From: Rhodospirillales bacterium
GTDB taxonomy: Bacteria > Pseudomonadota > Alphaproteobacteria > ATCC43930 > CGMCC-115725
NCBI GenBank assembly: GCA_027315365.1
Contig: DAHUYF010000087.1
Span: forward strand, 1 to 64,000
Length of the DNA stretch: 64,000 nucleotides
Direction of reading: 5' to 3'
Positions 10,467 through 63,642 of the stretch are shown here, one piece after another; position 1 is the stretch's first letter, and every line of letters begins with the position of its first letter. Made by a program: the position numbers and the translations under genes. The notes beneath the pieces were generated by a model. That model saw nothing but the letters and a program-made list of their open reading frames with translations. It did not search any database and had not been told where the DNA came from.

Positions 10467-10546
10467 GGCGGCGCCGGGCGGCGTTGACAAGCGCGCGAGG
10501 CGCCGCTTTGAATGGCGCGCGCTTCCGAGCGCCTTGGGGGACCGGG

Positions 10547-41323: not shown

Positions 41324-41326
41324 GCG

Positions 41327-43212: not shown

Positions 43213-43260
43213 AAGATCGGCTCCTTTTGCAACGGATGGTGCTACATATGGGGGTAGATC

Positions 43261-44456: not shown

Positions 44457-44463
44457 GGGGGCG

Positions 44464-46084: not shown

Positions 46085-46879
46085 ATGCTGCGCATCTTGA
46101 AGCTCGGCCTGACCGCCATGGCGCTCGCTGCTCTCACCGGCTGTACGCCCGACTATTCGCCGAACACCTATTCCGGCAATGCAGTTCAGCAGGCGAACAA
46201 GGTCGAGCCCGGGATCGTGGCGGGATATCGCGAAGTCGCGATCAGCGCCGATGGTACCGTCGGCGCGGTCGAAGGTGGCGCGGCGGGCGGCATTCTGGGA
46301 TCGCAGAGCGGCGCCATTGGCCTCAACGCGGCCTTGGGCACGGTGGGCGGCTCGGTGATCGGCGGTCTCGTCGGCGCGACGCTCGAGCATGTGACCTCCG
46401 ATACCAAGGGCTGGGAATACATCGTCCGCAAATCCAACGGCGATCTGCTCTCGGTGACGCAGCGCGAGCCGACGCCGTTGCCGATCGGGCAGAAGGTGCT
46501 GGTGATTACCGGCAACCAGGCGCGCATCATCGCGGATTACTCGGTGCCGGTCGAGCCGCCGGCACCCGCCAAGGCGTCGGCCGAGGCGAAGGAGTCGGTG
46601 CCCGCCAAGGAGCCGGCGGACGACAAGCAGGCGGCCGGGGCTAACGCAGCCGCGGCCTCGGCCTCGGATGATGCGGGGGCGACGCCTGCGCCGGCGTCGA
46701 GCCTGGCCAACGCGCCGGCGACGTCGCCGCCTAGGCCGATCACTCCCGCCGCGGCGGCCTCGCCGCCCGCCCCGAGTTCGACCTCAACGGCCGCGAGCGA
46801 GCCGGAGCCGGCTGTCACTCCGGCGGCCGCTACGGCGTCGCCTCCGGCCTCGGGCACCGGCGATAAAAGCGCGCCCTAG
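46085..46879 (+). CDS. Glycine-zipper outer-membrane lipoprotein (SlyB/PcP-like) with Ala/Pro-rich tail
   Basis: A 264-residue lipoprotein with lipobox ALTGC and the glycine-zipper region of SlyB-type proteins (VEGGAAGGILGSQSGAIGLNA, GGSVIGGLVGATLEH, in part). Residues 30-160 resemble the family; the last 100 are low-complexity Ala/Pro/Ser (PPAPAKASAEAKESVPAKEP), which is unusually long. SlyB homologues stabilise outer-membrane proteins. GGGGGATCG ribosome site. The stop overlaps that of the convergent acyltransferase. Confidence 0.85.
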   Translation: MLRILKLGLTAMALAALTGCTPDYSPNTYSGNAVQQANKVEPGIVAGYREVAISADGTVGAVEGGAAGGILGSQSGAIGLNAALGTVGGSVIGGLVGATLEHVTSDTKGWEYIVRKSNGDLLSVTQREPTPLPIGQKVLVITGNQARIIADYSVPVEPPAPAKASAEAKESVPAKEPADDKQAAGANAAAASASDDAGATPAPASSLANAPATSPPRPITPAAAASPPAPSSTSTAASEPEPAVTPAAATASPPASGTGDKSAP

Positions 46880-47634
46880 CCGGGTTGCGCCGCCGTCTTT
46901 CTGCCGGAGAGTTCCTGCCGGTAGTAGCCTTCGAGGTCACTCATGAAGGATTGGAGATCATCGCCCACGTCGAACCGCTTCCCCAGCCGCACGCGGTAGA
47001 CGAGCGGAAAGTCGGGTTTCTTGAGGAGCGGCCAGCCCTTGCCGAGAAAGCGCGAATTCGACTCGATAAAGACCGTCTGAATCGGCGCGTCCGCCTTTTT
47101 CGCGATCAAGGCGAAGCCGCCCTTGAAGTGGCCGACCTGCCCGCCGACCGTACGCGTACCCTCGGGGAAGATCAGCAGTGCGTGCCCGGCTCGCAGCTTC
47201 TCGGTAGACCGCTTGACCAATGTCGCCGGAGAGTCGTTCCGGATGTATCCCGCAAGCCGCGCGCCGCCGCCGAGCAGGGGGTTGTTCAAGACTTCCGGCT
47301 TCATGATGCAGGTGACGTTGCGGAGCCGAGAGATGATCAATACGGCATCAAGCAGCGTCGGGTGGTTCGGCGCGATGACCAGCCGGCCGCTCCGGCGCAG
47401 CCCGTCGAGGTCTCTCAGGTCGCACCTGATGATGCCGCTCATCGTCATGACCCCGACGAAATAGCGGAAGCCCGCCATGATCATGAAACTGCCGAACGGT
47501 TCGCCCAGCCGGCGTGGCAGCACGTGGTATAGAAGCGCCGCGGGCAGGCTCCAGAGCAGGCTGCTGATGCCAAAGATCGCGAGCGAGCCGTAGAAAACGA
47601 CATATTCGTAACAAAGGCGCAGACCCCGGATCAT
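46876..47634 (-). CDS. 1-acyl-sn-glycerol-3-phosphate acyltransferase family protein (PlsC-like)
   Basis: A 252-residue membrane acyltransferase with NHPTLLD (NHX4D catalytic motif) and FPEGTR. The N-terminus MIRGLRLCYEYVVFYGSLAIF carries a membrane helix. An alternative ATG at 47760 adds 42 residues (starting MKGKLIASLFAKN) with no family support, so the shorter start is preferred, although AAGG in front of it is not strong. At the edge of the APE cluster; it could acylate a lipid carrier or belong to general phospholipid synthesis. Confidence 0.82.
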   Translation of the reverse strand: MIRGLRLCYEYVVFYGSLAIFGISSLLWSLPAALLYHVLPRRLGEPFGSFMIMAGFRYFVGVMTMSGIIRCDLRDLDGLRRSGRLVIAPNHPTLLDAVLIISRLRNVTCIMKPEVLNNPLLGGGARLAGYIRNDSPATLVKRSTEKLRAGHALLIFPEGTRTVGGQVGHFKGGFALIAKKADAPIQTVFIESNSRFLGKGWPLLKKPDFPLVYRVRLGKRFDVGDDLQSFMSDLEGYYRQELSGRKTAAQPG

Positions 47635-47853
47635 CCTGGCCTTGCCGCGAGAGCGCCAATGTCGACTTGCTCTGATTTCCTTCCGGGTGATTGCCTCAAT
47701 TTTTCCGCATGGTCCTCCCATGTTTTTGGCGAAAAGAGATGCTATCAATTTACCCTTCATCGACCGAATGATCCCGACGGCATAAGCGCATCACCTGTTT
47801 CGCATATCTTGCACGCAATAGGACGCGCGTGGTATCCCCCCTCGTGAAAACGC

Positions 47854-48798
47854 GTGTCGCCGTGGACGGTTTTGGCGTCCTTCCGCCGTCGCGGCGTGCT
47901 GGGTCGCGGGGGAGGCCGATTGGGCGGGGGCTGGGGCTTTAGTGGCGAATTGGACCGGTCGGCGCGGGACGGCGATTCCGGCAACGCGGCGGGGGTTGGT
48001 TCATGGTCACCCGCTCCCGTGGTGTCCGCGTCGGTCCTGCTCCATCTTGCCGGTTTTGCGGCGCTGGCCGCCGACCCGATTCTATGGGACTGGGTTGCTG
48101 CAGCGCTCGTCGGCAACCACGCCGTCCTCGGCACGCTGGGCATGTGGCCGAAGAGCCAATTACTCGGGCCCAATTTGGTTCGGCTGCCCGAGCATTGCGC
48201 CCGCCGGGGCGAGATCGCCCTGACCTTTGATGACGGTCCGGATCCCGCGGTCACGCCGCGCGTTCTCGACCTGCTTGATCGACGCAACGCCAGGGCCAGC
48301 TTCTTCTGCATCGGCCGGCAGGCCGCGGCCTATCCTGACATCGTCCGCGACATACATGCGCGCGGCCACAGCGTCGAAAACCACAGCTGGCGGCACTCCA
48401 ACGCCTTCGCCTTGCTCGGTCTCAACGGCTTGCGCCGGGAGGTTGCAACGACGCAAGCCGTCATCAAGGGCATCACCGGACGGTCGCCGCAGTTTTTTCG
48501 GGCGCCGATGGGGCTTCGGAGTCCTTTGCTCGACCCGGTGCTTGCCCGTGCCGGTCTGCGCTACGCCGGGTGGGCGCGGCGCGGCTTCGATACCGTGCGG
48601 AGTAACCCGCACCGGATATTACATAGCCTCACTCGCGGGCTGGCGGCCGGCGATTTGATCGTGCTGCACGACCGCTTAGCAGCGAAGACGTCTGCCCAGC
48701 CGGTGGTGCTCGCGGTTCTCAATTTGCTCCTCGATGAACTCGCGGCACGCGGATTGCGGGCGATATCGCTGCCGATGGCTCTCGGGTTTCGGGGTTAA
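47854..48798 (+). CDS. Polysaccharide deacetylase (NodB domain)
   Basis: A 314-residue protein whose residues 125-310 are a NodB-type deacetylase: ALTFDDGPDPAVTPRVLDLL (metal Asp), HSVENHSWRHSN (two metal histidines) and FRAPMGLRSPLL. The N-terminal part has a hydrophobic segment (VVSASVLLHLAGFAALAAD) that may anchor it. The first 50 residues from the GTG at 47854 are Gly/Arg-rich and look spurious; a GTG at 48019 gives a tidier start (VVSASVLL). Likely de-N-acetylates a glycan or glycolipid in the APE pathway; NodB genes do occur in APE clusters. Confidence 0.82.
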   Translation: MSPWTVLASFRRRGVLGRGGGRLGGGWGFSGELDRSARDGDSGNAAGVGSWSPAPVVSASVLLHLAGFAALAADPILWDWVAAALVGNHAVLGTLGMWPKSQLLGPNLVRLPEHCARRGEIALTFDDGPDPAVTPRVLDLLDRRNARASFFCIGRQAAAYPDIVRDIHARGHSVENHSWRHSNAFALLGLNGLRREVATTQAVIKGITGRSPQFFRAPMGLRSPLLDPVLARAGLRYAGWARRGFDTVRSNPHRILHSLTRGLAAGDLIVLHDRLAAKTSAQPVVLAVLNLLLDELAARGLRAISLPMALGFRG

Positions 48799-48895
48799 AG
48801 GATGAAGTGTTGGCAGGCCGTGCGAAGGAGCGCCGCCAGTTCGGCCGCTCGATCGTCCGTGGTGCAGCGAGTGAACGCGGCGCCGGGCGACCCGC

Positions 48896-49651
48896 CTATG
48901 ATTTGCGCGCGATGTAGCTGCGGAAGAGATCGAGTTCGGTTTCGCAGCGCGGCTCCTTAAACCCGCCGATGCGCATCGCCTCCAGGATCGCCTGGGGCGC
49001 CACGCAATTCTCGATCGTTTCCCAGTGGTAGCGCATGAGCGCGCGCGTATGGACGTCGCCATTGGCGAGCCCGCAGAGGAAGGGAACCACCCTGCCGAGA
49101 TAGGCCGCCGCGACGGCGCGGCTCAGCCGCTTCCCCGGCCTGCCGATTTCGAGGAGCAGCACGGTGCCGCCCGGACGGAGTATCCGGTAAAATTCACGGA
49201 AGGTGGCGACGAGATCGGACACGTGCCGCAGGGCGTAGCCCATCGTCACGAAATCCGCGACCCCTTCGGCGAGCGGCAGACCTTCGGCGACACCCTGGAT
49301 GAGCGGGATGTCGAGCTTGCTCCGCGCGACGGCGAGCATGGCCTCGCTTAGATCGACGCCGATCACCCCGCGCCGGTCTCCCGTGATGGCGACGGCCTCG
49401 CGCGCCAATAGCCCGGTGCCGACGGCGACGTCTACCACTCGCAGCCCGGGACCGAGCCCGGCACGCAACAGACATCGGCGCCGGTACCACGCGCCCGAGC
49501 CGAGCGAGAAGAGACGGTTGATACCGTCGTAATAGGGAGCGGTATCGTTGAAGAGGCCGCGGACGAAGGTCTTGTGGTGGGCGCGGCGGGCGTAGAACCC
49601 GGCGATGACCGGATGCGGTTCGATCGGGCCGTGCTCGTCTCCTCGCTCCAC
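48896..49651 (-). CDS. SAM-dependent methyltransferase (UbiE/COQ5-like)
   Basis: A 251-residue class I methyltransferase: SAM-binding motif VVDVAVGTGLLAREAV, post-motif VIGVDLSEAMLAVAR and motif GGTVLLLEIGRPG. Resembles the UbiE/COQ5 group that methylates quinones and other aromatic rings. In this setting it could methylate the aryl head group, as APE products are often methylated; this is an inference. Starts at GTG. 110 bases separate it from the divergent halogenase-like gene. Confidence 0.85.
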   Translation of the reverse strand: MERGDEHGPIEPHPVIAGFYARRAHHKTFVRGLFNDTAPYYDGINRLFSLGSGAWYRRRCLLRAGLGPGLRVVDVAVGTGLLAREAVAITGDRRGVIGVDLSEAMLAVARSKLDIPLIQGVAEGLPLAEGVADFVTMGYALRHVSDLVATFREFYRILRPGGTVLLLEIGRPGKRLSRAVAAAYLGRVVPFLCGLANGDVHTRALMRYHWETIENCVAPQAILEAMRIGGFKEPRCETELDLFRSYIARKS

Positions 49652-49761
49652 GGCCAGACCTCGCTGCAGCGTGCGCCACGATTACGCCATTCGCTGGATG
49701 TTGGCAACCGAGGCTGCTAATCTCGCGATGCTCAGGCCGCCGATGGGAGCGCCTTCCGCCA

Positions 49762-51096
49762 TTGCTGACGGAGCCGAGACATTCCCCAGATCGCGACGGG
49801 ATCGCCGTCGAGCACTGCGACGTACTGGTCGTCGGCGGCGGGCCCGCTGGTTCGACCATCGCAGCGCTGCTCGCGGAACGAGGACGGCGCGTGGTCCTGG
49901 TCGAAAAGGACCGGCAGCCGCGTTTCCATATCGGCGAGTCGCTCCTTCCTCTCAACCTGCCATTGTTCGAGCGCTTGGGCATAAAAAACGCTGTCGAACG
50001 CGTCGGCATGGTCAAGTACGGGGTCGAATTCGTATCCGCCGCTCACCAGCGCGCGGTGCGCTATGAGTTCGCCCGCGCCTGGGACAAGACGTTCCCTTAC
50101 GCCTACCACGTGCGGCGCTCCGAGTTCGACCACCTCCTGCTGCGGAACGCCGCCGCCAAGGGCGCGGAGATCGTCGAAGAATTCCGGGTCACGGAGGTCG
50201 ATTTCCTGCCTGAGGGCGGCGCCCTGGTCAAGGGGCGCGGCACCGACGGCGGAGAGCGGCGCTGGCGCGCCGCCTTCCTGGCGGACGCCTCGGGGCGCGA
50301 CACGCTGCTCGCCGCCAAGCTCGGGCTCAAGCGGCGGAACCGCAAGCATGCCAGCGCGGCGGTCTATGGCCATTTCACCGATGCCGAGCGGCTGCCCGGC
50401 AAGGCGGAAGGCGACATCAGCATCTTCTGGTTCGAGCATGGCTGGTTCTGGTTCATCCCGCTCGTCGACGGCACCACGAGCGTTGGGGCGGTCTGCCGCC
50501 CGGAATTCATCAAGGCCCGCAAGGGCGACGTAACCACCTTCTTCATGAGCACGATTGCGAGCTGTCCCGAGCTTGCCGCGCGCTTACGGCAGGCCCGGCT
50601 GGTTTCACCCGCCGCGGCAACGGGCAACTATTCGTACAGCGCCACTCGAATGTTCGGGCGCAGTTTTATCCTGCTGGGCGACGCCTTCGCCTTCATCGAT
50701 CCGGTCTTCTCGACCGGCGTCTATATCGCGATGACGATGGCCTTCCTCGGTGCAGACGCGGTCGAGGCATGCCTGTGCGATCCACGAAAAGCCGGACGCG
50801 CGCTGCGGCATTTCGAGGCCGAGACGCTCCGCGGGCTGAAGTCGCTCTCCTGGTACATCTACCGCATCAACAGCCCGGCCATTCGCGACATGTTCATGTC
50901 GCCGCGCAATTTCCTGCGCGTCGAGGAAGCCATGCTGTCGCTGCTGGCCGGCGACGTGTTCCGGCCCTCGCCGATCCGGAAGCGGCTGCTCGTGTTCAAG
51001 GCGTTCTATTACATGGTCAGCCTCTTGAACATGAGGGCTTGCATTAAGGGCTGGTGGCTGCGGCGGCGGAAAGCGGCGTTCGCGATCATCGATTAG
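49762..51096 (+). CDS. FAD-dependent halogenase-like oxidoreductase
   Basis: A 444-residue flavoprotein with FAD-binding GGGPAGST at residues 25-32 and GESLLPLN. It carries both motifs considered diagnostic of flavin-dependent halogenases: W-x-W-x-I-P (WFWFIP, residues 228-233) and F-x2-P-x2-S-x-G (FIDPVFSTG, 311-319). A lysine in the usual place (VKYGVEF, K85) could hold the chloramine/bromamine. Geranylgeranyl reductase-like monooxygenases share part of this set, so the reaction is not proven. The TTG start has a weak ribosome site; no better start lies upstream. Halogenated aryl polyenes such as xanthomonadins make halogenation of the polyene head plausible. Confidence 0.8.
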   Translation: MLTEPRHSPDRDGIAVEHCDVLVVGGGPAGSTIAALLAERGRRVVLVEKDRQPRFHIGESLLPLNLPLFERLGIKNAVERVGMVKYGVEFVSAAHQRAVRYEFARAWDKTFPYAYHVRRSEFDHLLLRNAAAKGAEIVEEFRVTEVDFLPEGGALVKGRGTDGGERRWRAAFLADASGRDTLLAAKLGLKRRNRKHASAAVYGHFTDAERLPGKAEGDISIFWFEHGWFWFIPLVDGTTSVGAVCRPEFIKARKGDVTTFFMSTIASCPELAARLRQARLVSPAAATGNYSYSATRMFGRSFILLGDAFAFIDPVFSTGVYIAMTMAFLGADAVEACLCDPRKAGRALRHFEAETLRGLKSLSWYIYRINSPAIRDMFMSPRNFLRVEEAMLSLLAGDVFRPSPIRKRLLVFKAFYYMVSLLNMRACIKGWWLRRRKAAFAIID

Positions 51097-51259
51097 GCTT
51101 GCCGGCGATGCGGGACCTCGGTTTTCCTTCTCGTTCTACCGATTGTGCGGCACGGTCTTCGGTGATGGCGACGACCGGCGACCTCACGACGGCGTCGTCC
51201 GGTCCCGTTCCTATGGTCGCCGGTAGCTCGGCGCGCACGGTTCCCGGTATGCTCCGTCC

Positions 51260-52048
51260 GTGACCGATGCCTCGACCACCCACCTTGTCCTCGTCCCGAG
51301 CTACGACACCGGTGCCAAGGTGCTGGAGACGGTGGCTGAGGCGCGCTGCGTCTGGGAGCCCGTCTGGATCGTGGTCGACGGCAGCACCGACGGCACTGGG
51401 GAGGCGCTGCGGCGCCTCGCGGCGCGGGATGCGGGGCTGCGCGTTCTCGTCCGGCCGGGCAACGGCGGCAAGGGTGCCGCCGTGCTCGACGGGCTGCGCG
51501 AGGCGCAGGCGCGTGGCTTTACCCACGCACTGGTCATGGACGCCGACGGCCAGCACCCGGCCGCGTTGATCCGCGACTTCATGGCGCTCTCGCGCCGCCA
51601 CCCCGACGCGATGATCCTGGGCGTCCCGGTGTTCGACCGCGACGCGCCGAGGCTGCGCGTCGGCGGCCGGCGCATCTCCAACGGGTGGGCCAATCTGGAG
51701 ACGCTTTGGGCGGGTATCGGCGACTCCCTGTTCGGCTTTCGCGTCTATCCCATCGCGGCGCTACGCCCGATCATGGAGGGAACGCGATGGATGCGGCGCT
51801 TTGATTTCGATCCGGAGGCCGTCGTTCGGTTGGCGTGGCGCGGCGTCGCGGCGATCAACCGGCCCGCGCCGGTGCGGTATTTCCGCCGCGAGGAAGGCGG
51901 CGTATCGCATTTCCGCTATCTGCGCGACAACGCGCTGCTCACCTGGATGCACGTGCGATTGATGATCGGCTTCCTGCTGCGCCTGCCGCTGCTGGTCGCG
52001 CGGCGCCTCAGATCATCCCGCCGTTTATCGAGACGAGCTGGCCGGTGA
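51260..52048 (+). CDS. Family 2 glycosyltransferase
   Basis: A 262-residue GT2 enzyme with VVDGSTDGT, MDADGQH (D-x-D metal/nucleotide-sugar binding) and the RYFRREEGGVSHFRYLRDN region. No strong membrane helix except hydrophobic residues near the end (LMIGFLLRLPLLVARRL). Starts at GTG. The last 41 bases overlap the convergent ketoreductase gene, an unusual amount. In APE clusters GT2 proteins may add a sugar to the polyene or its lipid anchor. Confidence 0.85.
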   Translation: MTDASTTHLVLVPSYDTGAKVLETVAEARCVWEPVWIVVDGSTDGTGEALRRLAARDAGLRVLVRPGNGGKGAAVLDGLREAQARGFTHALVMDADGQHPAALIRDFMALSRRHPDAMILGVPVFDRDAPRLRVGGRRISNGWANLETLWAGIGDSLFGFRVYPIAALRPIMEGTRWMRRFDFDPEAVVRLAWRGVAAINRPAPVRYFRREEGGVSHFRYLRDNALLTWMHVRLMIGFLLRLPLLVARRLRSSRRLSRRAGR

Positions 52049-52727
52049 TGTAGGCCGCTTCCTCCGAGGTGAGGAAACCAACGAGATCGGCCACTTCCTC
52101 GGGCCGCCCCGCGCGCTTCATCGGAACCAGGCGCGCGACCGAGTCCTTGTCGAAGACGGCATCTGTCGCCGGCGAGGCGATAATTCCGGGGGCCACCGTG
52201 TTGACGGTGATCCCGCGGCTTGCCAGCTCGAGCGCAAGCGAGCGGGTGGCGCCGTGCAGCCCCGCCTTCGCCGCCGCGTAATTGGCCTGGCCACGATTGC
52301 CGGCGATGGCGGCGACCGAGGAGATATTGACGATCCGTCCCCAGCGCCCGCGGATCATCGGCATGAGCAGCGGCTGCGTGACGTTAAAGAAGCCATTGAG
52401 CGAGACGTCGAGCACGCGGGACCACTGGTCGCGGCGCATGCCGGGCATGACCGCGTCGTCATGAATGCCGGCATTGTTGACGAGAATGTCGACGGCACCC
52501 GCTTCGAGCATGCGCTCGATTGCCTCTCGAGCGGCGTCGGCGTCGGCAACATCAAAAATGATGGTTGCTGCCGAACCGCCCGCCGCGGCGATCCCCGCCG
52601 CGACCTCCTGCGCGCGGGCGCCGCCGTGATGCGCATGCACAAGGACGTGGTGGCCCGCCGCCGCCAGCCTCCGGCAGATCGCCGCGCCAATGGCGCCGCT
52701 GCCGCCGGTGACCAGGGCGCGCCTCAT
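52008..52727 (-). CDS. 3-oxoacyl-ACP reductase (ApeQ-type ketoreductase)
   Basis: A 239-residue SDR enzyme: TGGSGAIG cofactor-binding motif at residues 7-14, NNAG at 84-87, catalytic Ser137, Tyr150 and Lys154 (YAAAK). It reduces the beta-keto group in each polyene elongation round. Last gene of the APE core run; ATG overlaps the preceding dehydratase stop. Confidence 0.9.
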   Translation of the reverse strand: MRRALVTGGSGAIGAAICRRLAAAGHHVLVHAHHGGARAQEVAAGIAAAGGSAATIIFDVADADAAREAIERMLEAGAVDILVNNAGIHDDAVMPGMRRDQWSRVLDVSLNGFFNVTQPLLMPMIRGRWGRIVNISSVAAIAGNRGQANYAAAKAGLHGATRSLALELASRGITVNTVAPGIIASPATDAVFDKDSVARLVPMKRAGRPEEVADLVGFLTSEEAAYITGQLVSINGGMI

Positions 52728-53161
52728 TGCACCGCCCCGACGAGCACGACCGCGGCGCGACCGGTGAGCACATCCCGTCCTGCCGAGCGGACGGCGAACT
52801 GATAGACGACACGCTGTTCATCGCCGATCAGCCGCTCGGCGTCGATGATCAGCTCTTCCGCGAGAAGATCCAGGCGATCTTCCCGGCAGGCGAGGTCGCG
52901 CACGCTGGCGAGATAGCCGGCCTGTGGCTTTCCCGCGGCACGGCCGGCGAGCCGGCCATGCACCGCCATGGCCTGCGCGGCGAACTCGATGCCACAGACC
53001 GCCGTGATCCCGTCGGCATGGCGCAGGGGATTGTCTGGTGCGCGATGCCGCGCGCTGACACAGCGGATCGACACCGCATCCCAGCGAAGCACGCCGTCGA
53101 GCAGGCACATGGCGCCGGCATGCGGGATGAGCGTCGCGATCTGCGCACGGTCGAGAATCAT
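52724..53161 (-). CDS. 3-hydroxyacyl-ACP dehydratase (ApeP-type, COG4706)
   Basis: A 145-residue hot-dog fold dehydratase of the COG4706 type, with LIPHAGAMCLLDGVLRWD at the N-terminus and CGIEFAAQAMAVHGRL holding the helix glutamate. Partner of the FabZ-like dehydratase at 60029 in forming conjugated double bonds. ATGA overlap with the chain-length-factor-like gene upstream. Confidence 0.88.
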   Translation of the reverse strand: MILDRAQIATLIPHAGAMCLLDGVLRWDAVSIRCVSARHRAPDNPLRHADGITAVCGIEFAAQAMAVHGRLAGRAAGKPQAGYLASVRDLACREDRLDLLAEELIIDAERLIGDEQRVVYQFAVRSAGRDVLTGRAAVVLVGAVQ

Positions 53162-54006
53162 GCCGGGACGGCCGGTCGCCGACCCGAGTCGCCGCCGCGC
53201 GCCGCATCCGGCAGCAGCGGAAGCAAGGTGAGGCGGAGTTCGAGCTCGGGCAGATAGTCCAGCACGAGCGTCTGCGGCTCGTCGCGCGCCACCGCCTCGA
53301 GAAGCGGCAGACTCCGCGCCGCCGGCGAGCTCCGGCGCAGGTCATCGAGCGCGCCGGAGCTCGCGGCCCGAGCGCCGCCCGACTCGGGCAGCAGCTCGAT
53401 ATCCAGGCGCGAAAAGCAGGCGTCGGTCGGGTACGGCGCGAGAATGAGCGCGGCGCCGAACACCGCGCCGATCTGGCGCACGCTGTTCAGCGGCTCGGGA
53501 TAGCAGACGTCATAGGCGATCAGCGCGACTGCCCGATCCTCGACCGTCGTCTGGACCGCTGCCTCGAGCAGTCCGGCGGCGAAACTCGCATCGCGGCAGC
53601 AGAGGCTGCTCGACGGCGCTCGCGAGCCGGCGGCGATGCTCCAATAGCCGGCGGGCGCATTGTGCACGGAATTGTGAAAGCGGGTCGGCGACAGTTCCCG
53701 ATCGGCGGAGGCCAGGGTCTCGAGAATCTGGTGAATCGTCTCGCCATCGCCGCCGGAGGAGGTGAAGACCGTCGCGGTCTCAGCGATTTCTCGCCCGGCC
53801 GCCTCGAATGCCTCCGCGCCAACCGCGAGCGCCAGCTTTACGGTCAGGACGGTGCGGCGCCGCTCGTTCGCCGGGAGGAGCGGGCTCGGCGGCACCGTCA
53901 CCGATGCCGGCTCGTAGGTCTTGGTGCCGGCAAGGACCGGCCGGCCGGCTTCCCAGCCGTTCAGTCCCGGGCCGCGCAGCCCGATGCCTTCGATGAAGAC
54001 GCGCAC
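53158..54006 (-). CDS. Beta-ketoacyl synthase-like chain-length factor (ApeC type)
   Basis: A 282-residue protein with a partial ketosynthase fold: ATVFTSSGGDGETIHQILETL and LLEAAVQTTVEDRAVALIAYD. It lacks the Cys-His-His catalytic triad in its normal context (SSLCCRDASFAAG instead of a KS Cys motif), consistent with the ApeC class that pairs with a KS to set polyene length. The GTG start overlaps the KS stop by one base (TAGTG). Confidence 0.85.
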   Translation of the reverse strand: MRVFIEGIGLRGPGLNGWEAGRPVLAGTKTYEPASVTVPPSPLLPANERRRTVLTVKLALAVGAEAFEAAGREIAETATVFTSSGGDGETIHQILETLASADRELSPTRFHNSVHNAPAGYWSIAAGSRAPSSSLCCRDASFAAGLLEAAVQTTVEDRAVALIAYDVCYPEPLNSVRQIGAVFGAALILAPYPTDACFSRLDIELLPESGGARAASSGALDDLRRSSPAARSLPLLEAVARDEPQTLVLDYLPELELRLTLLPLLPDAARGGDSGRRPAVPA

Positions 54007-55196: not shown

Positions 55197-55200
55197 GTTC

Positions 55201-55413
55201 TCAGACAATTCCGTACCAACGCATCTCGACATCCCCGATCCTGGAGCCCCGGCTCAGCCGCGCCGGGCTCAAGGAACCGTCCGTTGGCTCTGGGCTCAGT
55301 TGCCTCATATGGTCCATTGCGAACTCGATCGCGGTACCCGAAGCAAGCGCGGTGAGAGGGCCGATCGGCATCAACGAATGGCCTTCCGTCGCGGGGCGAC
55401 CATAGCACGTCAT
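55201..55413 (-). CDS. Small open frame inside the APE operon, tentative
   Basis: A 70-residue frame starting MTCYGRPATEGHSLMPI and ending DVEMRWYGIV, between the hydrolase and KS genes. It ends 4 bases before the KS start. No family recognised, no clear ribosome site; a nested start at 55371 is possible. Included because the operon is otherwise gapless and a 260-base space would be unusual. Confidence 0.35.
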   Translation of the reverse strand: MTCYGRPATEGHSLMPIGPLTALASGTAIEFAMDHMRQLSPEPTDGSLSPARLSRGSRIGDVEMRWYGIV

Positions 55414-55455
55414 TTCGCTTCGGAGCACAGGCGCCGTGAGTGCCGCATCGGCTCT

Positions 55456-56154
55456 TCATGGCCCGAGTTCCCGGACGCCGGCGGCGAACGGGTCCGCGTC
55501 GAGGATCTGCCGCCACAGCGTCTCCCAGGTCTTCCAGTCGTGGCCGCCCTCGGCCAGGAAGATGCGCCCGACCGGCAGGCATGCGCCGAGAATGGCGTGG
55601 CCCGGCGCGAAGCGGTCGTCTCGGCCATAGGCGAGATAGAGCTCAGGCCCGCCCTGGGGCGCCGGAAGATGATCCTTCAGCCAGCCGAGCAGCATTCGCT
55701 CGGTATCCGCGACAGCGACCTCGCCGGGTTCCCAGCGCGCGAGGCCGCCAGCCCGGCCGACCTCGGCGGTCATGCCCGGCGTGCAGAGAAAGGGCGCAAG
55801 CAGGATGACGCCTTCGACTTTCTGCGGATGAGCTTGAGCATAAAGCAGGGCGCCCATGCCGCCGAGCGAGATACCGAGGAACCACAAGCGCGCCGGTCGT
55901 TCGGCCAATGCAGGAAGGATGACCTGCTGGTCGAGGTCTTCGACGACGGTGCGATCGAGATAGCGCGCGAGATCGGCGGCCGGCGCCACCACCTCCACCG
56001 TCGGCCGGCGCGCCTGTACTGCCTGGACGAAATCGTGTTCGGCGAAATCCTTGGGTTCGATACCGACGCCGGGCAGCGCCACCAACAGGACGCGGTCGCC
56101 GGCTGCCTCCCGCGCCGGATGACGGACAACCTCCATGGGCGGGGATGCCGTCAC
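55456..56154 (-). CDS. Alpha/beta hydrolase
   Basis: A 232-residue hydrolase with nucleophile elbow GISLGG (catalytic Ser), LLVALPGVGIEPKDF near the oxyanion hole and a late GGHDW carrying the catalytic His. In the APE setting it may be a thioesterase or lipase releasing or transferring the polyene; this is inferred from position only. ATG overlaps the exporter stop (ATGA). Confidence 0.82.
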   Translation of the reverse strand: MTASPPMEVVRHPAREAAGDRVLLVALPGVGIEPKDFAEHDFVQAVQARRPTVEVVAPAADLARYLDRTVVEDLDQQVILPALAERPARLWFLGISLGGMGALLYAQAHPQKVEGVILLAPFLCTPGMTAEVGRAGGLARWEPGEVAVADTERMLLGWLKDHLPAPQGGPELYLAYGRDDRFAPGHAILGACLPVGRIFLAEGGHDWKTWETLWRQILDADPFAAGVRELGP

Positions 56155-58517
56155 GGGTGCCGGTCTCCGCGCCCGTTGCGGACCGCCTCGCCGAAGCCGT
56201 GCTCGGCGCTCAGGATGGCGGCAAAGAAAAGGCTGAATACCGCGCCGATCGCGACGGCCATGCCAATGTCGTGCAGCACCGGGACGCCCGAGAAGGAGAG
56301 GCTGCCGAAGCCGACGACGGTGCTGAGATTTGCCAGCGCGAGGGACGCGATGGCGCGCTCGCGATGGGCGTCCTCACCCCGCATGCGTTCGAAGAAGAGG
56401 CAGTAGTTCGATCCGACTGCCACGATCAGCAGCAGGCCAACCAGATTGAAGATGGACAGCTTCTGGGCGTCGGCGGTGAGGAGAGCCGCGGTTGCGGTCA
56501 CCGCGGCTGCGAGCGGCGCGGCCGTAACCAGCACGCGGCGCGCCGAACGCAGGCTTGCCGCCAGCAGGACGATAATGACCAGACCGCCGATCAGGGCGAG
56601 TGTCACCGCCTCGTGCTGGTAATGCTGCAGCAGGTGGTCAGCCGCGCCCTTGAGGTCGACGAAAGCGATCTCCGGCTTGCCCAAGGCGGCGACAGCCGCC
56701 GCAACGCGCGGCGCGTCGGCGACGCCGCGCAGCGGCAGCATGGTCGTCCATCCGCCGCGCCGCTGGTAGAGAAGCGAATCGAGCTTGAGCGCCAGGTCGC
56801 GCGGAAGGTCGTCGCGCGTTAGCGGCGGCGCCGCCTTCGCCGCGGCGACGTCCCGGAGGAAGGGCGCGAAGAGGTCCGTCCGGAAGGGCATGCCGGCGAG
56901 CGCCTGCTGCAATCTCCCGCGCAGCGTGTCCGTGTCCGGCAATGCAGCCTGCCGGGCCCGCTGCGTCGCCAGGCTCGGCAGATATGCGGTGGGCGCGTCG
57001 AAGCCGGAAAGCGCCGTCTGCGCGACCAGCGTCGCCAACACCCCCGACAGCCGCTCACTCTCGGTCAGCGCCTGCTGCTCGTCCGCAGCGTTGACGACGA
57101 GGAGGTAGCGGAGATCGAGGGCGCCCAGATCACCACGAAGCTCGCGATCCAGCCTTAGCTCGCCGGCCGGGATCGGACTGAGGCTCGACAGGTCCTGCTG
57201 CCAGAAGCCGCCGCGATGAAAAGCGAGGAGCGCCGCCGCGCCGAGCATCAGGAGCGCCAGCACCATGCGCAGCGCTCGCGCATGGCTCATTGCCAGCAGC
57301 AGGGGAAGCGCGAATATCTCGGAGGCGCCGGTGGAGAAATTCCGCGGCAGCAGCGCAGGCAGAACCCAACGCGTGACGCTCACCGCGACCACCAGACCGA
57401 TGATGGAGAAGAGGCCGAGCTGCGCGAAGCCGGTGAAGCTCGAGAACAGCATGGCGCTGAAGCCGGCGATCGAGGTGATCACGCCGAGACGCAGCGTCGG
57501 CCATATGCGCGCGAGCGTGTCCTCGGCCGAGCCGCCCGGTGCCGTCTGCGTGAGAAGGTAGATGGGATAGTCGACGGATTCACCGATCAGGGTGACGCCG
57601 AAGCCGAGCGTGATGCCGTGCACGAAGCCGAAGCCCAGCGCGACGCTGGCGATGCCGGCGACCGCGCCGCTCGCCACGGGGAGAAGACCAAGGAACAGCA
57701 GGCGCGGCGAGCGGTAGGCGAAAAGCATCAGGCTCGCTACCACGACGGTCGCCAGGAGAGAGAGGCGCGTGGCGTCCCCTTCTATTGTCGCTCGTGTCCG
57801 CACCGCGAAGACGCCCGGGCCGGTTTCCAGGAGATGCGCCTTCGCGGCGCCGGGCACGTCCTGGCGCGCACGGTCAAAGGCCGTGCGGATCAGCCCCAGC
57901 GCCCGCTGCTGGGCGTCGATGTCGAAGCCCGCGTCGCGCGTCTGCACGACGAGCACGGCACGCCGCTCGTCAGCCGAGAACCAGACCCCCTCATGGGCAT
58001 GGGGCCGCGTGGCGCCCGCCAACCGGTCGACCAGCCCCAGCATCTCGCCGGTGGGATCGCCCGGGAGGCTGTTCTTGATCAGCACCGCCAAATCCGAGCC
58101 GAGCAGCCGCAGATCCTTCTCCAGCGCGCGATGGAGGCCGGCCACGGTGAAGCGCCCGGGCGCGACGTCCGGGCTGAGCAGATACCGGTTGCGCCAGAAG
58201 AAAGCCCGGTCCGTCTCGACGGCGCCCGTCTCGCCATTGTTGACCGCGAGAAAAGCCGGCTCGCCGGCCAGGCGCTTGGCCATGGCGCGGCTGATCATCG
58301 CCAGCGCCTCCGCGGGCGCGTCGTCCATGCCGAGGAGTATGAGCCGCGACGCGGCGCCGTTCCGCACTTGGTCGACGAGCACCTCCTGCGCGGCCGAGGG
58401 CGAGCGGGGCAGAAATGCCGTCATGTCGGTCGCCACCCTGGTTCGGGAGACGATCACGGCGCAAGCCGCCATCGCGACGATCCAGAGCACGATGGTGCCG
58501 CGTCGCGACATCGTCAT
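56151..58517 (-). CDS. MMPL/RND-superfamily exporter
   Basis: A 788-residue 12-helix RND-type transporter with two periplasmic domains: first helix TIVLWIVAMAACAVIVS, then LVDQVRNGAASRLILLG; the midregion TLGFGVTLIGESVDYPIYLL carries the helix-4 motif, and the last block FNLVGLLLIVAVGSNYCLFF the second. The presumed role is to move the polyene or its lipid precursor across the inner membrane. ATGA overlap with the LolA-like gene. Confidence 0.9.
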   Translation of the reverse strand: MTMSRRGTIVLWIVAMAACAVIVSRTRVATDMTAFLPRSPSAAQEVLVDQVRNGAASRLILLGMDDAPAEALAMISRAMAKRLAGEPAFLAVNNGETGAVETDRAFFWRNRYLLSPDVAPGRFTVAGLHRALEKDLRLLGSDLAVLIKNSLPGDPTGEMLGLVDRLAGATRPHAHEGVWFSADERRAVLVVQTRDAGFDIDAQQRALGLIRTAFDRARQDVPGAAKAHLLETGPGVFAVRTRATIEGDATRLSLLATVVVASLMLFAYRSPRLLFLGLLPVASGAVAGIASVALGFGFVHGITLGFGVTLIGESVDYPIYLLTQTAPGGSAEDTLARIWPTLRLGVITSIAGFSAMLFSSFTGFAQLGLFSIIGLVVAVSVTRWVLPALLPRNFSTGASEIFALPLLLAMSHARALRMVLALLMLGAAALLAFHRGGFWQQDLSSLSPIPAGELRLDRELRGDLGALDLRYLLVVNAADEQQALTESERLSGVLATLVAQTALSGFDAPTAYLPSLATQRARQAALPDTDTLRGRLQQALAGMPFRTDLFAPFLRDVAAAKAAPPLTRDDLPRDLALKLDSLLYQRRGGWTTMLPLRGVADAPRVAAAVAALGKPEIAFVDLKGAADHLLQHYQHEAVTLALIGGLVIIVLLAASLRSARRVLVTAAPLAAAVTATAALLTADAQKLSIFNLVGLLLIVAVGSNYCLFFERMRGEDAHRERAIASLALANLSTVVGFGSLSFSGVPVLHDIGMAVAIGAVFSLFFAAILSAEHGFGEAVRNGRGDRHP

Positions 58518-59128
58518 CGGGCGGTTTCGACGATGCTCATGTCGGAATGATCGCCGTCGGCATCCTCTGTCATCACCCGGCGGATCGTGTTGCCGCTGCC
58601 GGCGATAAGGATCGATTTGACGAGTTTCCGGAGCGTTGCGTCCTTCGGCACCAGCGCGAGCTGCCAATCGGCGGCATCGCCTGAGAGGCTGATCTCGTAG
58701 AAGCGCTGAAGCGCCGGCAGGTCGCCGGCGAGGGTGGCACGGATGCCTTCGACGAGGGCTCCGACTTCCGGATAGCGCGCAAGGGAGAGCGTCCGGTTGC
58801 GGTCCTCAGCCCCTCCCTCGATGGTCAACGTGTCGCCCGCAAGCGCCAAACGCTCCCATTTCGGCGACACCGTGATCTTCTGCACCTGGTCCGGGGCGAC
58901 GTAGAGCAGCGTACCCGACGCGATCAGCGGCTGATCGAGCACATGCAGGTATTTGCGCTCGACGAACTGGCTGGAGGCCGATTTGACCTGCTGCAGCGAC
59001 TGCATCAACTGCTGGATCCCCCAGACCCGTGCCGCCGTTGCGCCGGCCTGGACCTGGGCCGGAACACCGGCGCCGCGGATTGCGAGCAGCGGCAAGAGAA
59101 ACAGGAGGAGGCCGACTTTGACACGCAT
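58514..59128 (-). CDS. LolA-like outer-membrane lipoprotein carrier protein
   Basis: A 204-residue periplasmic protein with a signal peptide (MRVKVGLLLFLLPLLAIRG) and a LolA-like half-barrel (ASSQFVERKYLHVLDQPLIA, SGTLLYVAPDQVQKITVSP). LolA relatives in APE clusters are thought to carry the lipidated pigment to the outer membrane. A longer frame from 59203 lacks a signal peptide, so MRVKV is the start. It overlaps nothing but lies 1 base from the preceding gene. Confidence 0.88.
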   Translation of the reverse strand: MRVKVGLLLFLLPLLAIRGAGVPAQVQAGATAARVWGIQQLMQSLQQVKSASSQFVERKYLHVLDQPLIASGTLLYVAPDQVQKITVSPKWERLALAGDTLTIEGGAEDRNRTLSLARYPEVGALVEGIRATLAGDLPALQRFYEISLSGDAADWQLALVPKDATLRKLVKSILIAGSGNTIRRVMTEDADGDHSDMSIVETAR

Positions 59129-59129
59129 C

Positions 59130-60032
59130 TCATGCCCAGAAGTCGAAGAAGTTGAACCAGTTGAAGGGCGCCTCCCGGCAATGGTGCTCGAGCCGTTCGA
59201 CATAGCGGCTCATGGCTTTATCGATATCGTCGCGGACCCCGCAGGGCGCCGCCTCAGACAGGTCGGTCAGCCGCTCGAAATGGACATCGTAGCGCCGGCC
59301 GCCCCGGTAGGCGCCGAACATGAGCACGACCGGCCGCTTTAGCAACGCCGCCATGCGGAAGGGGCCGCTCGGAAAGGCCGCGGGGGCGCCCAGGAATGGA
59401 TACCGGGCGCGCTCCTCTCCGTCCAGGCTGCGGTCGGCGAGGATGCCGACGAAGTGGCCTTCCTCGAGACGCTGATCGACCTCGATCATCGCCCCCGGCT
59501 TCCCCAGCCCGACCACGTCCATGGCGAGATCGGGATTGATGGCATTCAGCGCCGATCGGATCTTGCGCGCATTCTCCTCATACATGACGAGGGTGACGCG
59601 CAGTCCCGGCTGCCGCCGTCCGAGTGCCCGCGCCACTTCGAAGCTGCCGAAATGCGCGCCGAGCAGAATGCAGCCGGAGCCGCGTTCGAGAATGTCCATG
59701 ACGACGTCCTCGCCCTGCACCTGCACGTCGAAGCGATGAAGCCCGTCGTTTAGGAAGAATACCCGATCGAGAATGCAGCTCGCGAAGGCGTGGTAGTGGC
59801 GGAAGACGTCGGCTGCGCCCGGCCTGCGGCCGAGTACCCGCGCGAGATAGCGCCGCGAAGCGAGCCGCGGCCTGCCGGAGAAGATCAGGAAGTAAAGACA
59901 GATCGGGTAGAGAAAGAGGCGCGCCGCCGGACGGCCGAGACGAAGCGCGACCCAGACGATGAATTTCAGCAGCGGCATGGCGCCGCGCTCACCGCGGACC
60001 GTCCATTCCGGCGGTGTCCCGGCCGATGTCAC
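59130..60032 (-). CDS. Lipid A biosynthesis-type acyltransferase (LPLAT, HtrB/LpxL-like)
   Basis: A 300-residue membrane acyltransferase with GAHFGSFE (H-x4-E catalytic motif of the LpxL group) and a hydrophobic N-terminal helix (LFLYPICLYFLIF). In APE clusters related acyltransferases may esterify the polyene to a lipid acceptor. GTG start overlapping the FabZ-like stop (GTGA). Confidence 0.87.
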   Translation of the reverse strand: MTSAGTPPEWTVRGERGAMPLLKFIVWVALRLGRPAARLFLYPICLYFLIFSGRPRLASRRYLARVLGRRPGAADVFRHYHAFASCILDRVFFLNDGLHRFDVQVQGEDVVMDILERGSGCILLGAHFGSFEVARALGRRQPGLRVTLVMYEENARKIRSALNAINPDLAMDVVGLGKPGAMIEVDQRLEEGHFVGILADRSLDGEERARYPFLGAPAAFPSGPFRMAALLKRPVVLMFGAYRGGRRYDVHFERLTDLSEAAPCGVRDDIDKAMSRYVERLEHHCREAPFNWFNFFDFWA

Positions 60033-60349
60033 CGAGCCGCCTCTCCGAGCGCCAGCGTGCCGGTCAACACGGGCCCTGCCGGATCGGGCAGTCGGCATTC
60101 GAACCGGGTCTCGCCATTGGGCAGGAGCTCCCAGCGAATCAGCATGCGGTCTCCCGGGCGCACCGGTCGGAGGAACTTCGCCGAGCGGATCGTGGCAGGC
60201 GCGGTCGGCCTTCCGGCGCTTGCCGCCACGGCGCGCAACACCTCGTCGAGGAGGACGGCCCCGGGGATGATCGGATTGCCGGGGAAGTGGCCGGCCGCCG
60301 TGGGATGGTCTACGGCAAAGCAGATCTTGGCGGAATCGGGCGGCGTCAT
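60029..60349 (-). CDS. FabZ-like 3-hydroxyacyl-ACP dehydratase (ApeI type)
   Basis: A 106-residue hot-dog protein with HFPGNPIIPGAVLLDEVL, the His-Phe-Pro-Gly motif of FabZ-type dehydratases. Short for FabZ but typical for ApeI. Together with the ApeP-type protein it forms the polyene. ATGA overlap with the ligase stop. Confidence 0.9.
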   Translation of the reverse strand: MTPPDSAKICFAVDHPTAAGHFPGNPIIPGAVLLDEVLRAVAASAGRPTAPATIRSAKFLRPVRPGDRMLIRWELLPNGETRFECRLPDPAGPVLTGTLALGEAAR

Positions 60350-61737
60350 TTCGGTCGACTCGCGGAGCCGTTCCGCAACGCCAGCTGCAGCAAGGCCTCG
60401 CGCGACAGCTTTCCCATGAAATTGCGTGGCAGGGCGTCGACGAGCATCAGCGGGCGCGGCAGGAAGGCGGCATCGACCCGTCGACGCAACGCGCGCAGGA
60501 TCGCGGCGACGGTCATGCCGGGCGCCACGACGAACGCGACGAGGCGGGTGACGCGCTCGCCTGATTCCTCCGGCATGACGAAGAGGCCGTCCCTGACGCC
60601 CTCGATCGCGGTGAGCTGGTGGTTGAGATGGGCAAGGGAGGTGCGCTTGCCGGCGATGTTGACGAGATCCGACGTGCGGCCGTGAAGCAGAAAACGGCGG
60701 GGACCGGAAAGCTCGATGACGTCCTGGAGCAGGGTTGCTGTCTCCACCGGCGCGCCGGTTGCCCAGGTGCCGCGCTCGTCCTGGCGCAACGCGACACCCT
60801 CGAGGCAGCGCCACGCCGTCTCCCGCGCGGTTTCCCGCAGCGCGAGCTGGCCCGCTTCCGAGCAGCCATAGATCTCGCGCAGCGGGGCGCCGAACCGGGC
60901 TTCGGCCTCGACCGCGAGCGCGCGCGACAGGGGCGCGGTCGCCGAGATCACCAGATCGGCGGCGGGCGGGTCGACCGCCTCGGCGAGGAGGGCGCGAAGG
61001 TGGATAGGCGTCGAGACGAGGAGGCGTGGCCGCGACGCGGCCGCGAGCGCGGCCCGGATGTCGCTCGGATAGAACGGCCGCTCCGCGTGGATCGCCAGCC
61101 CGTGCTGGAGCGCGAGGAGGACGGTCGATTCGAGCCCGTAGCTATGCTGATGCGGCACCGTGCCGATCACCGTGGCGCCGTGCAGCGCGCCAACTCCCAG
61201 GTCGTTGCCGGCGGCGAGTGCGCTGCGCACGAGCGTGCCCCAGGACTTCGCCTGCGGCTTCGGCCGCCCGGTCGATCCCGAGGTGAAGAGCAGGACGGCG
61301 CGCTGGGCGGCGGGCACGAGCGGCGCGGCCGACGCCGGCATCTCGCCGAGTTCCTCCGGATAGGCCATGCACGGGAGGGGGAGGGGCGTCGGCCCATTGT
61401 CGCTGAGGCAATAGAGGTCGACAAAATCTTCCGCCAGTTCCTTCAGCGTCCCCGGCGTGTCGTTGGGCGGCAGCAGCGTCACCTGCCGCCGCGAGAGCGC
61501 CGCCGCGAGGCCGACGGCGAAACGGTAGCGGTCCGCGCAAAGATTGACGACGTGACCATGGCAGGGCAGCGCCGCCGAGAGCGCGGCGACGTCGCTGAGG
61601 AAACGGCGCACGCTCATAGGCTGGCCGAGCCGACGAGCGAAAAGCGCGTCAGGCCGGTCATGCCGGAGGAGCGGATAGGCGTCGCGCGCGAAGAGGGGAT
61701 ACTCGTCCCGGACACCGTCGACCTCACCGCCGGGCAT
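60346..61737 (-). CDS. Acyl-AMP ligase (aryl/acyl-ACP ligase-like)
   Basis: A 463-residue AMP-forming ligase with LFTSGSTGRPKPQAK (P-loop), YGCSEAGQLALR, LHGRTSDLVNIAGKR and the C-terminal catalytic lysine in PRNFMGKLSRE. Shorter at the C-terminus than fatty acyl-CoA synthetases. Likely activates the aromatic starter (a hydroxybenzoate or cinnamate) and loads it on the ACP. ATGA overlap with the COG4648 gene. Confidence 0.88.
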   Translation of the reverse strand: MPGGEVDGVRDEYPLFARDAYPLLRHDRPDALFARRLGQPMSVRRFLSDVAALSAALPCHGHVVNLCADRYRFAVGLAAALSRRQVTLLPPNDTPGTLKELAEDFVDLYCLSDNGPTPLPLPCMAYPEELGEMPASAAPLVPAAQRAVLLFTSGSTGRPKPQAKSWGTLVRSALAAGNDLGVGALHGATVIGTVPHQHSYGLESTVLLALQHGLAIHAERPFYPSDIRAALAAASRPRLLVSTPIHLRALLAEAVDPPAADLVISATAPLSRALAVEAEARFGAPLREIYGCSEAGQLALRETARETAWRCLEGVALRQDERGTWATGAPVETATLLQDVIELSGPRRFLLHGRTSDLVNIAGKRTSLAHLNHQLTAIEGVRDGLFVMPEESGERVTRLVAFVVAPGMTVAAILRALRRRVDAAFLPRPLMLVDALPRNFMGKLSREALLQLALRNGSASRPK

Positions 61738-62294
61738 CAGCCGGAATCCGTCCGCCGGGAGAGCCCCTCTCCGATGTAGCCGATCATCCGGATCACCTCG
61801 CGCGGCGAGTGGCGCGGCGCATCGGCGAGGCGGAGCATGCGCCAGCTCTGCTCGGCCGCGAAGAAGAGCACGATCAGCGGCAGGTTCATGATGCCGACGA
61901 AGAACGACCACGCGACGAGCGGCGCCAGAAGGAAGAGCGCCAGCGAGGTCCCGAGCTGCGCCGCGAAGAAACCGCACCAGGCCCAGGTGATGCCGCGCGT
62001 GTAGCGCGCTTCCGCGTCGGGGATGGTGCCGTACATGCGCCGCGCCAGTGTGGTGACGAGCGCCACTCGTCCCGGCAGGAGCGTGCGGCCGAATACCGCC
62101 AGCAAACCGCAATAGACGAGCGTGTGGGGCACGGCCGCAGCGGCGACTAGGCCGATATCGACCGCCCGCGGGCCCAGTGCCGAGGCGACGTGCGCGGCAT
62201 AGCGGGTGGTCAGCGCCATGTGGATCAGCATGGGCAGCAGGCCAAGGCCGATGAAAGTCGCCCGCTTAGCCGCCGGAGCCGCGGTCAGACGCAT
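61737..62294 (-). CDS. COG4648-like membrane protein of APE clusters
   Basis: A 185-residue membrane protein with three or more helices (AVDIGLVAAAAVPHTLVYCG, WAWCGFFAAQLGTSLALFLLA, FFVGIMNLPLIVLFFAA). Such COG4648 proteins sit next to the ACP and ligase in APE clusters and may couple synthesis to the membrane. Directly follows the ACP gene. Confidence 0.85.
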   Translation of the reverse strand: MRLTAAPAAKRATFIGLGLLPMLIHMALTTRYAAHVASALGPRAVDIGLVAAAAVPHTLVYCGLLAVFGRTLLPGRVALVTTLARRMYGTIPDAEARYTRGITWAWCGFFAAQLGTSLALFLLAPLVAWSFFVGIMNLPLIVLFFAAEQSWRMLRLADAPRHSPREVIRMIGYIGEGLSRRTDSG

Positions 62295-62570
62295 TCAGCC
62301 GGCTCGATTTTGCTGTATGTACCGGCTCAGGCTGCGCAGCGAGGCGAATATCTCGTGGTTGCTCTTGTCATTCGCCCGGAGCTTCACGCCGAACTCCTTC
62401 GACACGACCAGGGCGACCTCGAGCATGTCGATCGAATCGAGTCCCAGTCCCTCGTCAAACAGCGGCGCGTCGGGATCGATCTCCGCTGCCTGGACCTCCA
62501 GGTTCAGGGTGATGACGATAAGGCGCGCCAAGGTCGCCTCGTCATGGTTTTGACTATTCTGCTCGCTCAT
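62295..62570 (-). CDS. Acyl carrier protein
   Basis: A 91-residue ACP with the phosphopantetheine attachment Ser46 in GLDSIDMLEVAL. Carries the growing polyene chain. First gene of the leftward core run and the only ACP found in the cluster; known APE clusters usually have two. Confidence 0.92.
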   Translation of the reverse strand: MSEQNSQNHDEATLARLIVITLNLEVQAAEIDPDAPLFDEGLGLDSIDMLEVALVVSKEFGVKLRANDKSNHEIFASLRSLSRYIQQNRAG

Positions 62571-63336: not shown

Positions 63337-63642
63337 TCACGCCGGCGCAGGGCCGCCGTCGAGGATCTCGCGGAGATAGGCGACGTGCTCGGCGAAGGCG
63401 CGGCGGCCCGACGGGGTGGGCTTGACCCGCGTCTGCGGCTTCCTGCCGACGAAGCGCTTCTCGATGGCGACGTAGCCGGCTTTCTCCAGCGTCTCGAGAT
63501 GCGCGCCGAGATTGCCGTCGGTGGCGCCGACCAGCGTCCTGAGCCGGGTGAACTCGAGCGCGGCGTCGGGGCCGAGCACGTTGAGCGCGGCCATGATCTT
63601 CAGGCGCATCGCCTGGTGAATCACCTCGTTGAGCCCGCTCAT
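63337..63642 (-). CDS. Winged-helix transcriptional regulator (HTH_34-like)
   Basis: A 101-residue protein with a winged-helix pattern: LEFTRLRTLVGATDGNLGAH recognition region, then LETLEKAGYVAIEKRFVGRK wing. This single-domain type usually controls adjacent genes. It starts 7 bases after the neighbouring membrane-protein gene ends on the same strand, so the two probably form an operon, with the regulator as the second gene. Confidence 0.88.
   Translation of the reverse strand: MSGLNEVIHQAMRLKIMAALNVLGPDAALEFTRLRTLVGATDGNLGAHLETLEKAGYVAIEKRFVGRKPQTRVKPTPSGRRAFAEHVAYLREILDGGPAPA

Follow-up and report, generated by a model that had tools for sequence, protein, structure and literature searches.

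The question raised by a run of 17 genes at positions 46876-62570 of a 64,000-nucleotide window (the whole stretch of DNA analysed; contig DAHUYF010000087.1 of a Rhodospirillales bacterium, assembly GCA_027315365.1) is whether it specifies an aryl polyene (APE) pigment and, if so, whether that pigment is of a kind already described. Gene content, protein families, orthology and synteny, together with published APE work from which the core chemistry and transport were inferred, make it very likely that the stretch is a complete-looking cluster for a xanthomonadin/arcuflavin-like aryl polyene lipid. The product is predicted to be a yellow, membrane-bound aryl polyene pigment.

Ketosynthase, chain length factor and gene content

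An earlier note on this DNA had proposed an APE-type cluster in an alphaproteobacterium, and the ketosynthase (KS) and its chain-length-factor-like (CLF-like) partner bear this out. When compared with solved structures, a KS profile built from the window and six relatives ranked 6qsp_A and 7f28_B first, and the CLF-like protein of the window ranked 7f28_A and 6qsp_B first, the partner subunits in the same pair of complexes: 6QSP is ApeO-ApeC of Xenorhabdus doucetiae and 7F28 is ApeO-ApeC of Acinetobacter baumannii (PMC8358021). In a KS tree (FastTree, 101 rows of 331-699 aa, with long-branch warnings, and with one other KS from the same genome, scoring >100 bits and of fatty-acid type), the window KS fell in an 86-row group (support 99), apart from that fatty-acid-type KS, so that the grouping with fatty-acid families that the earlier note had named as contrary to its proposal was looked for and not seen. 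Rows representing second KS genes lay mostly outside the 86-row group (11/13, with 2/13 inside), and the 11 alphaproteobacterial-type rows as a whole group had a support of just 76. The Cys and His stretches of the window KS are kept.

The remaining genes are those of an APE pathway. The KS and the adjacent CLF-like KS N-terminal protein, both of APE type, are accompanied by an acyl carrier protein (ACP), an aryl ligase, a ketoreductase (KR), two dehydratases (the second through orthology and position only), an MMPL/RND transporter, a LolA-like carrier and a COG4648 protein (the last through position and our own profile only), and the content of the xanthomonadin/arcuflavin subtype is present as a halogenase-like flavoenzyme, a GT2 glycosyltransferase, a PlsC-type acyltransferase and a NodB-type deacetylase. 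Every gene named in the earlier note is an open frame within 46876-62570, and the family searches agree, with matches to ACP, AMP-ligase, FabA-like dehydratase, KS, the PF13723 KS N-terminal-like factor, FabG-type KR, MMPL, LolA_3, Lip_A_acyltrans, PlsC-type, Polysacc_deac_1, GT2, UbiE-type methyltransferase and Trp_halogenase/FAD_binding_3 families. Fourteen of the 17 genes are on the minus strand. Several neighbours overlap by a few bases in an operon-like manner and all 17 frames are free of internal stops; the set is therefore not a product of chance. The genes are as follows, in order from the ACP end (L numbers denote other loci and G numbers genomes; percentages are identities).

62295-62570, minus: acyl carrier protein; PF00550 and NF006617, both above cut-offs; GLGLDSID stretch common among relatives
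61737-62294, minus: COG4648-type membrane protein (ApeG/ArcU-like); tblastn 41% to frames in L020 and L024; flanked by the ACP and ligase genes in many relatives
60346-61737, minus: AMP-dependent aryl acid ligase (ApeH/ArcT-like); PF00501; 64% to L031; start at 61737 chosen from relatives' matches
60029-60349, minus: dehydratase 1 (ApeI/ArcS-like); PF07977 above cut-off, PF22818 ApeI-like weak; start from relatives' matches
59130-60098, minus: LpxL-type acyltransferase (ArcR-like); PF03279; 55-63% in family relatives (tblastn); exact start unsure
58514-59128, minus: LolA-like periplasmic carrier; PF19574; NF053544 flexirubin LolA2 below cut-off
56151-58517, minus: MMPL/RND exporter; PF03176; 50-61% in family relatives (tblastn); start from relatives' matches
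55456-56154, minus: alpha/beta-hydrolase; PF00561; same place in four family relatives (tblastn) and a fifth, L116
54006-55232, minus: ketosynthase (ApeO/ArcK-like); best PDB matches 6qsp_A and 7f28_B; NF006618 above cut-off; KS tree; Cys-His-His stretches kept
53158-54006, minus: chain-length-factor-like KS N-terminal protein (ApeC/ArcJ-like); PF13723; best PDB matches 7f28_A and 6qsp_B
52724-53161, minus: dehydratase 2 (positionally ApeP/ArcI-like); family relatives have orthologues at 52-61% (tblastn), placed between CLF and KR
52008-52727, minus: ketoreductase; FabG NF004200 above cut-off, NF053542 FlxB below cut-off
51260-52048, plus: GT2 glycosyltransferase (ArcE-like); PF00535; 65-74% in family relatives (tblastn), 72% to L105
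49762-51096, plus: flavin-dependent halogenase-like enzyme (ArcA-like); PF04820; best PDB match 3e1t_A 'Halogenase'; motifs
48896-49651, minus: UbiE-type methyltransferase (ArcM-like); PF01209; 59-65% in three family relatives (tblastn)
48022-48798, plus: NodB-type (CE4) deacetylase (ArcN-like); PF01522; 59% to the L034 deacetylase; CE4-like motifs
46876-47760, minus: PlsC-type acyltransferase (ArcD-like); PF01553; 58% to L019

The alpha/beta-hydrolase gene had been missed in the earlier note, and by its position may be the counterpart of arcO. The deacetylase probably starts near 48022 and not at 47854, as the best matches start around residues 43-54; its CE4-like motifs are ones that we take to be markers of that family. 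The COG4648 protein and dehydratase 2 were assigned by conserved position, tblastn matches and home-made profiles, and PDB searches with dehydratase 2 and the GT2 protein gave no match. Upstream of the ACP gene, on the same strand, an HTH_34 winged-helix regulator (63337-63642) could control the cluster. On the other side, 38603-45971 is a housekeeping-looking flank with a BatA/DUF4159 protein, a MoxR-type ATPase, DUF1285, NUDIX and poly(A) polymerase genes.

In the published APE core, the ligase loads the ACP, KS:CLF, KR and dehydratases extend the chain, and RND and Lol-like proteins move the product outwards, while acyltransferases and a glycosyltransferase are proposed to attach it to a membrane anchor that is not known according to the authors (PMC8253772). 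By analogy, the ligase of the window would activate an aromatic acid and load the ACP, and KS:CLF, KR and the two dehydratases would extend it with malonyl units to a fully conjugated aryl polyene. The ring would probably be tailored by the methyltransferase (methylation) and the flavoenzyme (halogenation or, less likely, hydroxylation). An amino-sugar lipid anchor for the polyene is probably the work of the GT2 protein, the NodB-type deacetylase and both acyltransferases: a sugar would be added by GT2, its N-acetyl group removed by the deacetylase, and the free amine re-acylated by the PlsC-type acyltransferase. Transfer to the outer membrane would then fall to the MMPL exporter, the COG4648 protein and the LolA-like carrier.

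Several points weigh against this reading. The amino-sugar anchor, and the order and substrates of its steps, are our inference of what is probable. Neither the COG4648 protein (61737-62294) nor dehydratase 2 (52724-53161) gave a Pfam match even at E 10. On the KS tree, three rows labelled as CLF neighbours lay outside the APE group (two with the fatty-acid KS and one as an outer row), the labels being imperfect. Four starter-making families were looked for and not found in the genome of the window: aromatic ammonia lyase (PF00221, matched in 5/14 control genomes), UbiC (PF04345, matched in 1/14, E. coli), the Rv2949c-type lyase (PF01947, matched in 3/14) and XanB2-type PF21168 (matched in 0/14 controls and in 3/3 genomes with other APE clusters). 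Among eight family relatives searched, only G020 had a XanB2 match.

The flavin-dependent enzyme

Homology and motifs make ring halogenation the probable role of the flavoenzyme. Its profile matched the solved structures 3e1t 'Halogenase', 8zop 'Halogenase', 7fco ChlB4, 5buk and PltA first, followed by 3nix 'Flavoprotein/dehydrogenase' and CmlS. Alignment of 43 flavoenzyme frames, that of the window included, showed FxxPxxSxG in 36/43 and WxWxIP in 35/43; the window enzyme has both motifs and also a lysine that is invariant in 9/9 close homologues. We take WxWxIP and FxxPxxSxG to be halogenase markers. In all three XanB2-bearing genomes with other APE clusters, the XanB2 match has a flavoenzyme homologue and a PlsC-type gene around it, within about 3.4 kb, an arrangement consistent with ring tailoring by the flavoenzyme. 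In L020 (G018), at 9055-12109, two adjacent halogenase-like copies occur, one per strand, and each shares about 63% identity with that of the window.

The alternative that survives best is that the flavoenzyme acts as a hydroxylase or reductase and leaves the pigment non-halogenated, which we regard as a real possibility, though the less probable one. Below cut-offs, the enzyme has further matches to the monooxygenase QhpG and to geranylgeranyl reductases, it is far under the cut-off of the CmlS halogenase model, and 3nix is among its solved relatives; against this, the top five solved structures bear the name halogenase or ChlB4, with CmlS further down the list, and the halogenase motifs are conserved among the flavoenzyme frames. 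Where the earlier note had pictured a halogenated and glycosylated pigment, halogenation is plausible on homology and motifs, but the glycosylated pigment is probably the wrong picture, a lipid anchor being likelier.

Deacetylase and LPP in relatives

Close relatives differ from the window at the putative deacetylase step. In a set of 41 genomes (that of the window and 40 relatives), KS was found at 1e-90 or better in ten, with >600 bits in nine, the window's genome included, and 346 bits in the tenth (G002). The other eight of the nine strong-KS genomes encode an uncharacterised protein of about 430 residues with weak Lnb_N similarity, here called LPP, which was not found in the genome of the window; G012 has LPP without a KS at 1e-90. 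Conversely, an APE-type deacetylase (1e-40 or better) was found among the 41 genomes only in that of the window. G002, of the same genus, carries a different APE-like cluster (L118) with weaker matches (GT2, LolA, MMPL, two KS, KR and methyltransferase), and two APE types are thus possible within the genus.

The same separation was seen in a KS scan of named genomes, from which the best 80 of at least 592 confirmed stretches were kept, so that frequencies are not unbiased; L036 is a duplicate of L024, and genes were labelled with home-made profiles (E 1e-6, one best label per frame), by which a member of a generic family may be mislabelled. LPP was present in 4/80 of these loci and the deacetylase label in 57/80, with both together in none and neither in 19. 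The deacetylase label was strong (>=369 bits) in 55/57, the other two being weak and on long branches (L070, 100 bits; L081, 125 bits). Positions also correspond: eight of ten LPP frames (one a duplicate) lie between hydrolase and KS and a ninth between MMPL and KS, and of the 57 deacetylase frames, 48 are flanked by KS on one side and by MMPL or hydrolase on the other. Examples of LPP frames are L021:4372-5892, L024:8097-9431 and L031:8694-9980, with others in L033, L035 and elsewhere.

GGHxx[LF]YLxG and NCxH motifs occur in every one of the ten LPP frames, a His-then-Cys order that we assume to be a sign of a permuted papain/LRAT-like fold. Pfam Lnb_N was matched below cut-off in 5/8 scanned LPP proteins (best E 3e-4), an LPP profile found no relative among solved structures (best E 1), and an AlphaFold model of LPP built on four sequences was of low quality, with a mean pLDDT of 40.

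In the KS tree, the window sits nested in a group of six rows (support 99) whose other five members carry LPP, and on the deacetylase tree its deacetylase falls together with the deacetylases of L032, L034 and L083 (support 96), loci that are also near the window group on the KS tree. Together, these placements point to LPP loss with deacetylase gain or retention in the lineage of the window, as the simplest story for what would be one event on quick trees. A relict of the LPP gene was ruled out, the best tblastn match over the whole window having an E of 0.24. A strict link between LPP and an absent PlsC-type gene is contradicted by L019, L020 and L115, which carry both. We put forward, as a speculation more likely wrong than right, that in this family LPP replaced the deacetylase step of the APE anchor by (trans)acylating the anchor amine directly, and that the window lineage lost LPP and again carries the deacetylase and PlsC-type genes. 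If this were true, the LPP/deacetylase swap would be a natural exchange experiment; the comparison with close relatives suggests that the deacetylase of the presumed anchor is exchangeable for an Lnb/LRAT-like protein, and the uncertain anchor chemistry would become testable.

Gene combination and known systems

The earlier note had also held the gene combination to be unusual and its product possibly of an undescribed type; this is not supported. Accessory genes were counted in the 52 of the 80 kept loci that are longer than 20.5 kb: deacetylase in 43, GT2 in 39, PlsC-type gene in 30, flavoenzyme in 29, hydrolase in 20 and methyltransferase in 11. Nine core genes (KS, CLF, KR, dehydratase 2, MMPL, LolA, LpxL-type, ligase and ACP; the dehydratase 1 profile matched just three frames and was left out) occur together with deacetylase, GT2, PlsC-type gene and flavoenzyme in 17/52, and two of these 17, L066 (a Hydrogenophaga metagenome-assembled genome) and L105 (Noviherbaspirillum), additionally have the methyltransferase and hydrolase. 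The flavoenzyme frame exceeds 650 bits in 13/17, is cut by the locus end in L038, L066 and L093, and is weaker in L101 (283 bits), where it may be another flavoprotein. Gene order is conserved among family relatives and recurs in the named loci, which are mainly beta- and gammaproteobacterial. Novelty of the combination was ruled out by these 17 loci and by the arcuflavin gene table as excerpted from PMC3949708, in which all the genes regarded as additions already appear. In the portions consulted of the aryl polyene and xanthomonadin literature on glycosyltransferases, deacetylases, halogenases and Alphaproteobacteria, no publication on this cluster was found.

Other readings of the locus can be set against this background. 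An arcuflavin-like hybrid, in which a dialkylresorcinol encoded outside the cluster would be attached to the polyene, is unlikely. The Azoarcus system comprises two loci and dar genes (PMC3949708); the window has one locus, with no dar-type gene among its 17 cluster genes (the rest of the window being partly annotated and the genome not searched for darA/darB). Still less credible is the undescribed variant of the earlier note, a halogenated, glycosylated aryl polyene with the sugar on the pigment itself; the GT2, deacetylase, methyltransferase and halogenase-like genes that it calls for are present, but the identical set stands in the published arcuflavin table, deacetylase, GT2, PlsC-type gene and flavoenzyme accompany the core in the 17 long named loci, and the glycosyl transferase gene is described as highly conserved in such clusters (PMC3949708). 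A locus for fatty acids or for another type II polyketide, without relation to APEs, to which a KR above the FabG cut-off might point, can be set aside almost entirely, as KS, CLF, exporter, LolA and ligase all match APE families and order and the KS/CLF structure matches and KS tree rule it out.

The preferred reading, an aryl polyene lipid cluster, can be placed beside three known systems through excerpts of their published descriptions. The APE cluster of E. coli CFT073 shares ACP, COG4648 protein, ligase, dehydratase, LolA, RND transporter, KS, CLF, KR, acyltransferases and methyltransferase with the window, but has two ACPs, the glycosyltransferase/acyltransferase ApeJ, the thioesterase ApeK and an extra KS, ApeR, and its table, as excerpted, lists neither deacetylase nor halogenase (PMC8253772).

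In gene content, the xanthomonadin clusters of Xanthomonas and Lysobacter share KS with an adjacent CLF-like gene, ACP, KR, two dehydratases, LolA and exporters, as well as a dolichyl-phosphate-mannose-synthase-like gene and, in Xanthomonas, a halogenase; the 2013 Lysobacter paper depicts, for several genomes, halogenases and the dolichyl-phosphate mannose synthase gene close to KS-CLF (PMC3691225). The starter of these clusters is supplied via XanB2 (PMC3691225). XanB2-type enzymes are chorismatases that yield 3-hydroxybenzoate. A halogenated product is a mark of xanthomonadin only, not of arcuflavin. Because no XanB2-type PF21168 was found in its genome, the window, as far as gene content tells, is an APE cluster with xanthomonadin-like genes and not a xanthomonadin cluster proper.

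The third system is arcuflavin of Azoarcus sp. BH72, whose table lists a halogenase (arcA), an acyltransferase (arcD), a glycosyl transferase (arcE), reductase, dehydratase, CLF-like protein and KS (arcH-K), a methyltransferase (arcM), a polysaccharide deacetylase (arcN), hypothetical proteins (arcO and arcU), exporter, LolA, acyltransferase, dehydratase and ligase (arcP-T), and an ACP (arcV) (PMC3949708). By annotation and gene order, not by sequence comparison, all 17 window genes have arc counterparts (arcA, arcD, arcE, arcH-K and arcM-V), 15 by annotation and two, the COG4648 protein (arcU) and the hydrolase (arcO), by position only. The 17 genes do not include the XanB2 (arcB), antiporter (arcG) and outer membrane protein (arcC) of the Azoarcus set, and, in a further difference from Azoarcus, the deacetylase gene of the window is on the strand opposite to the KS operon and adjoins the PlsC-type gene. 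The cluster is a further member of an already known kind of APE cluster, and adds a member from a less studied alphaproteobacterial family to a very widespread pigment pathway.

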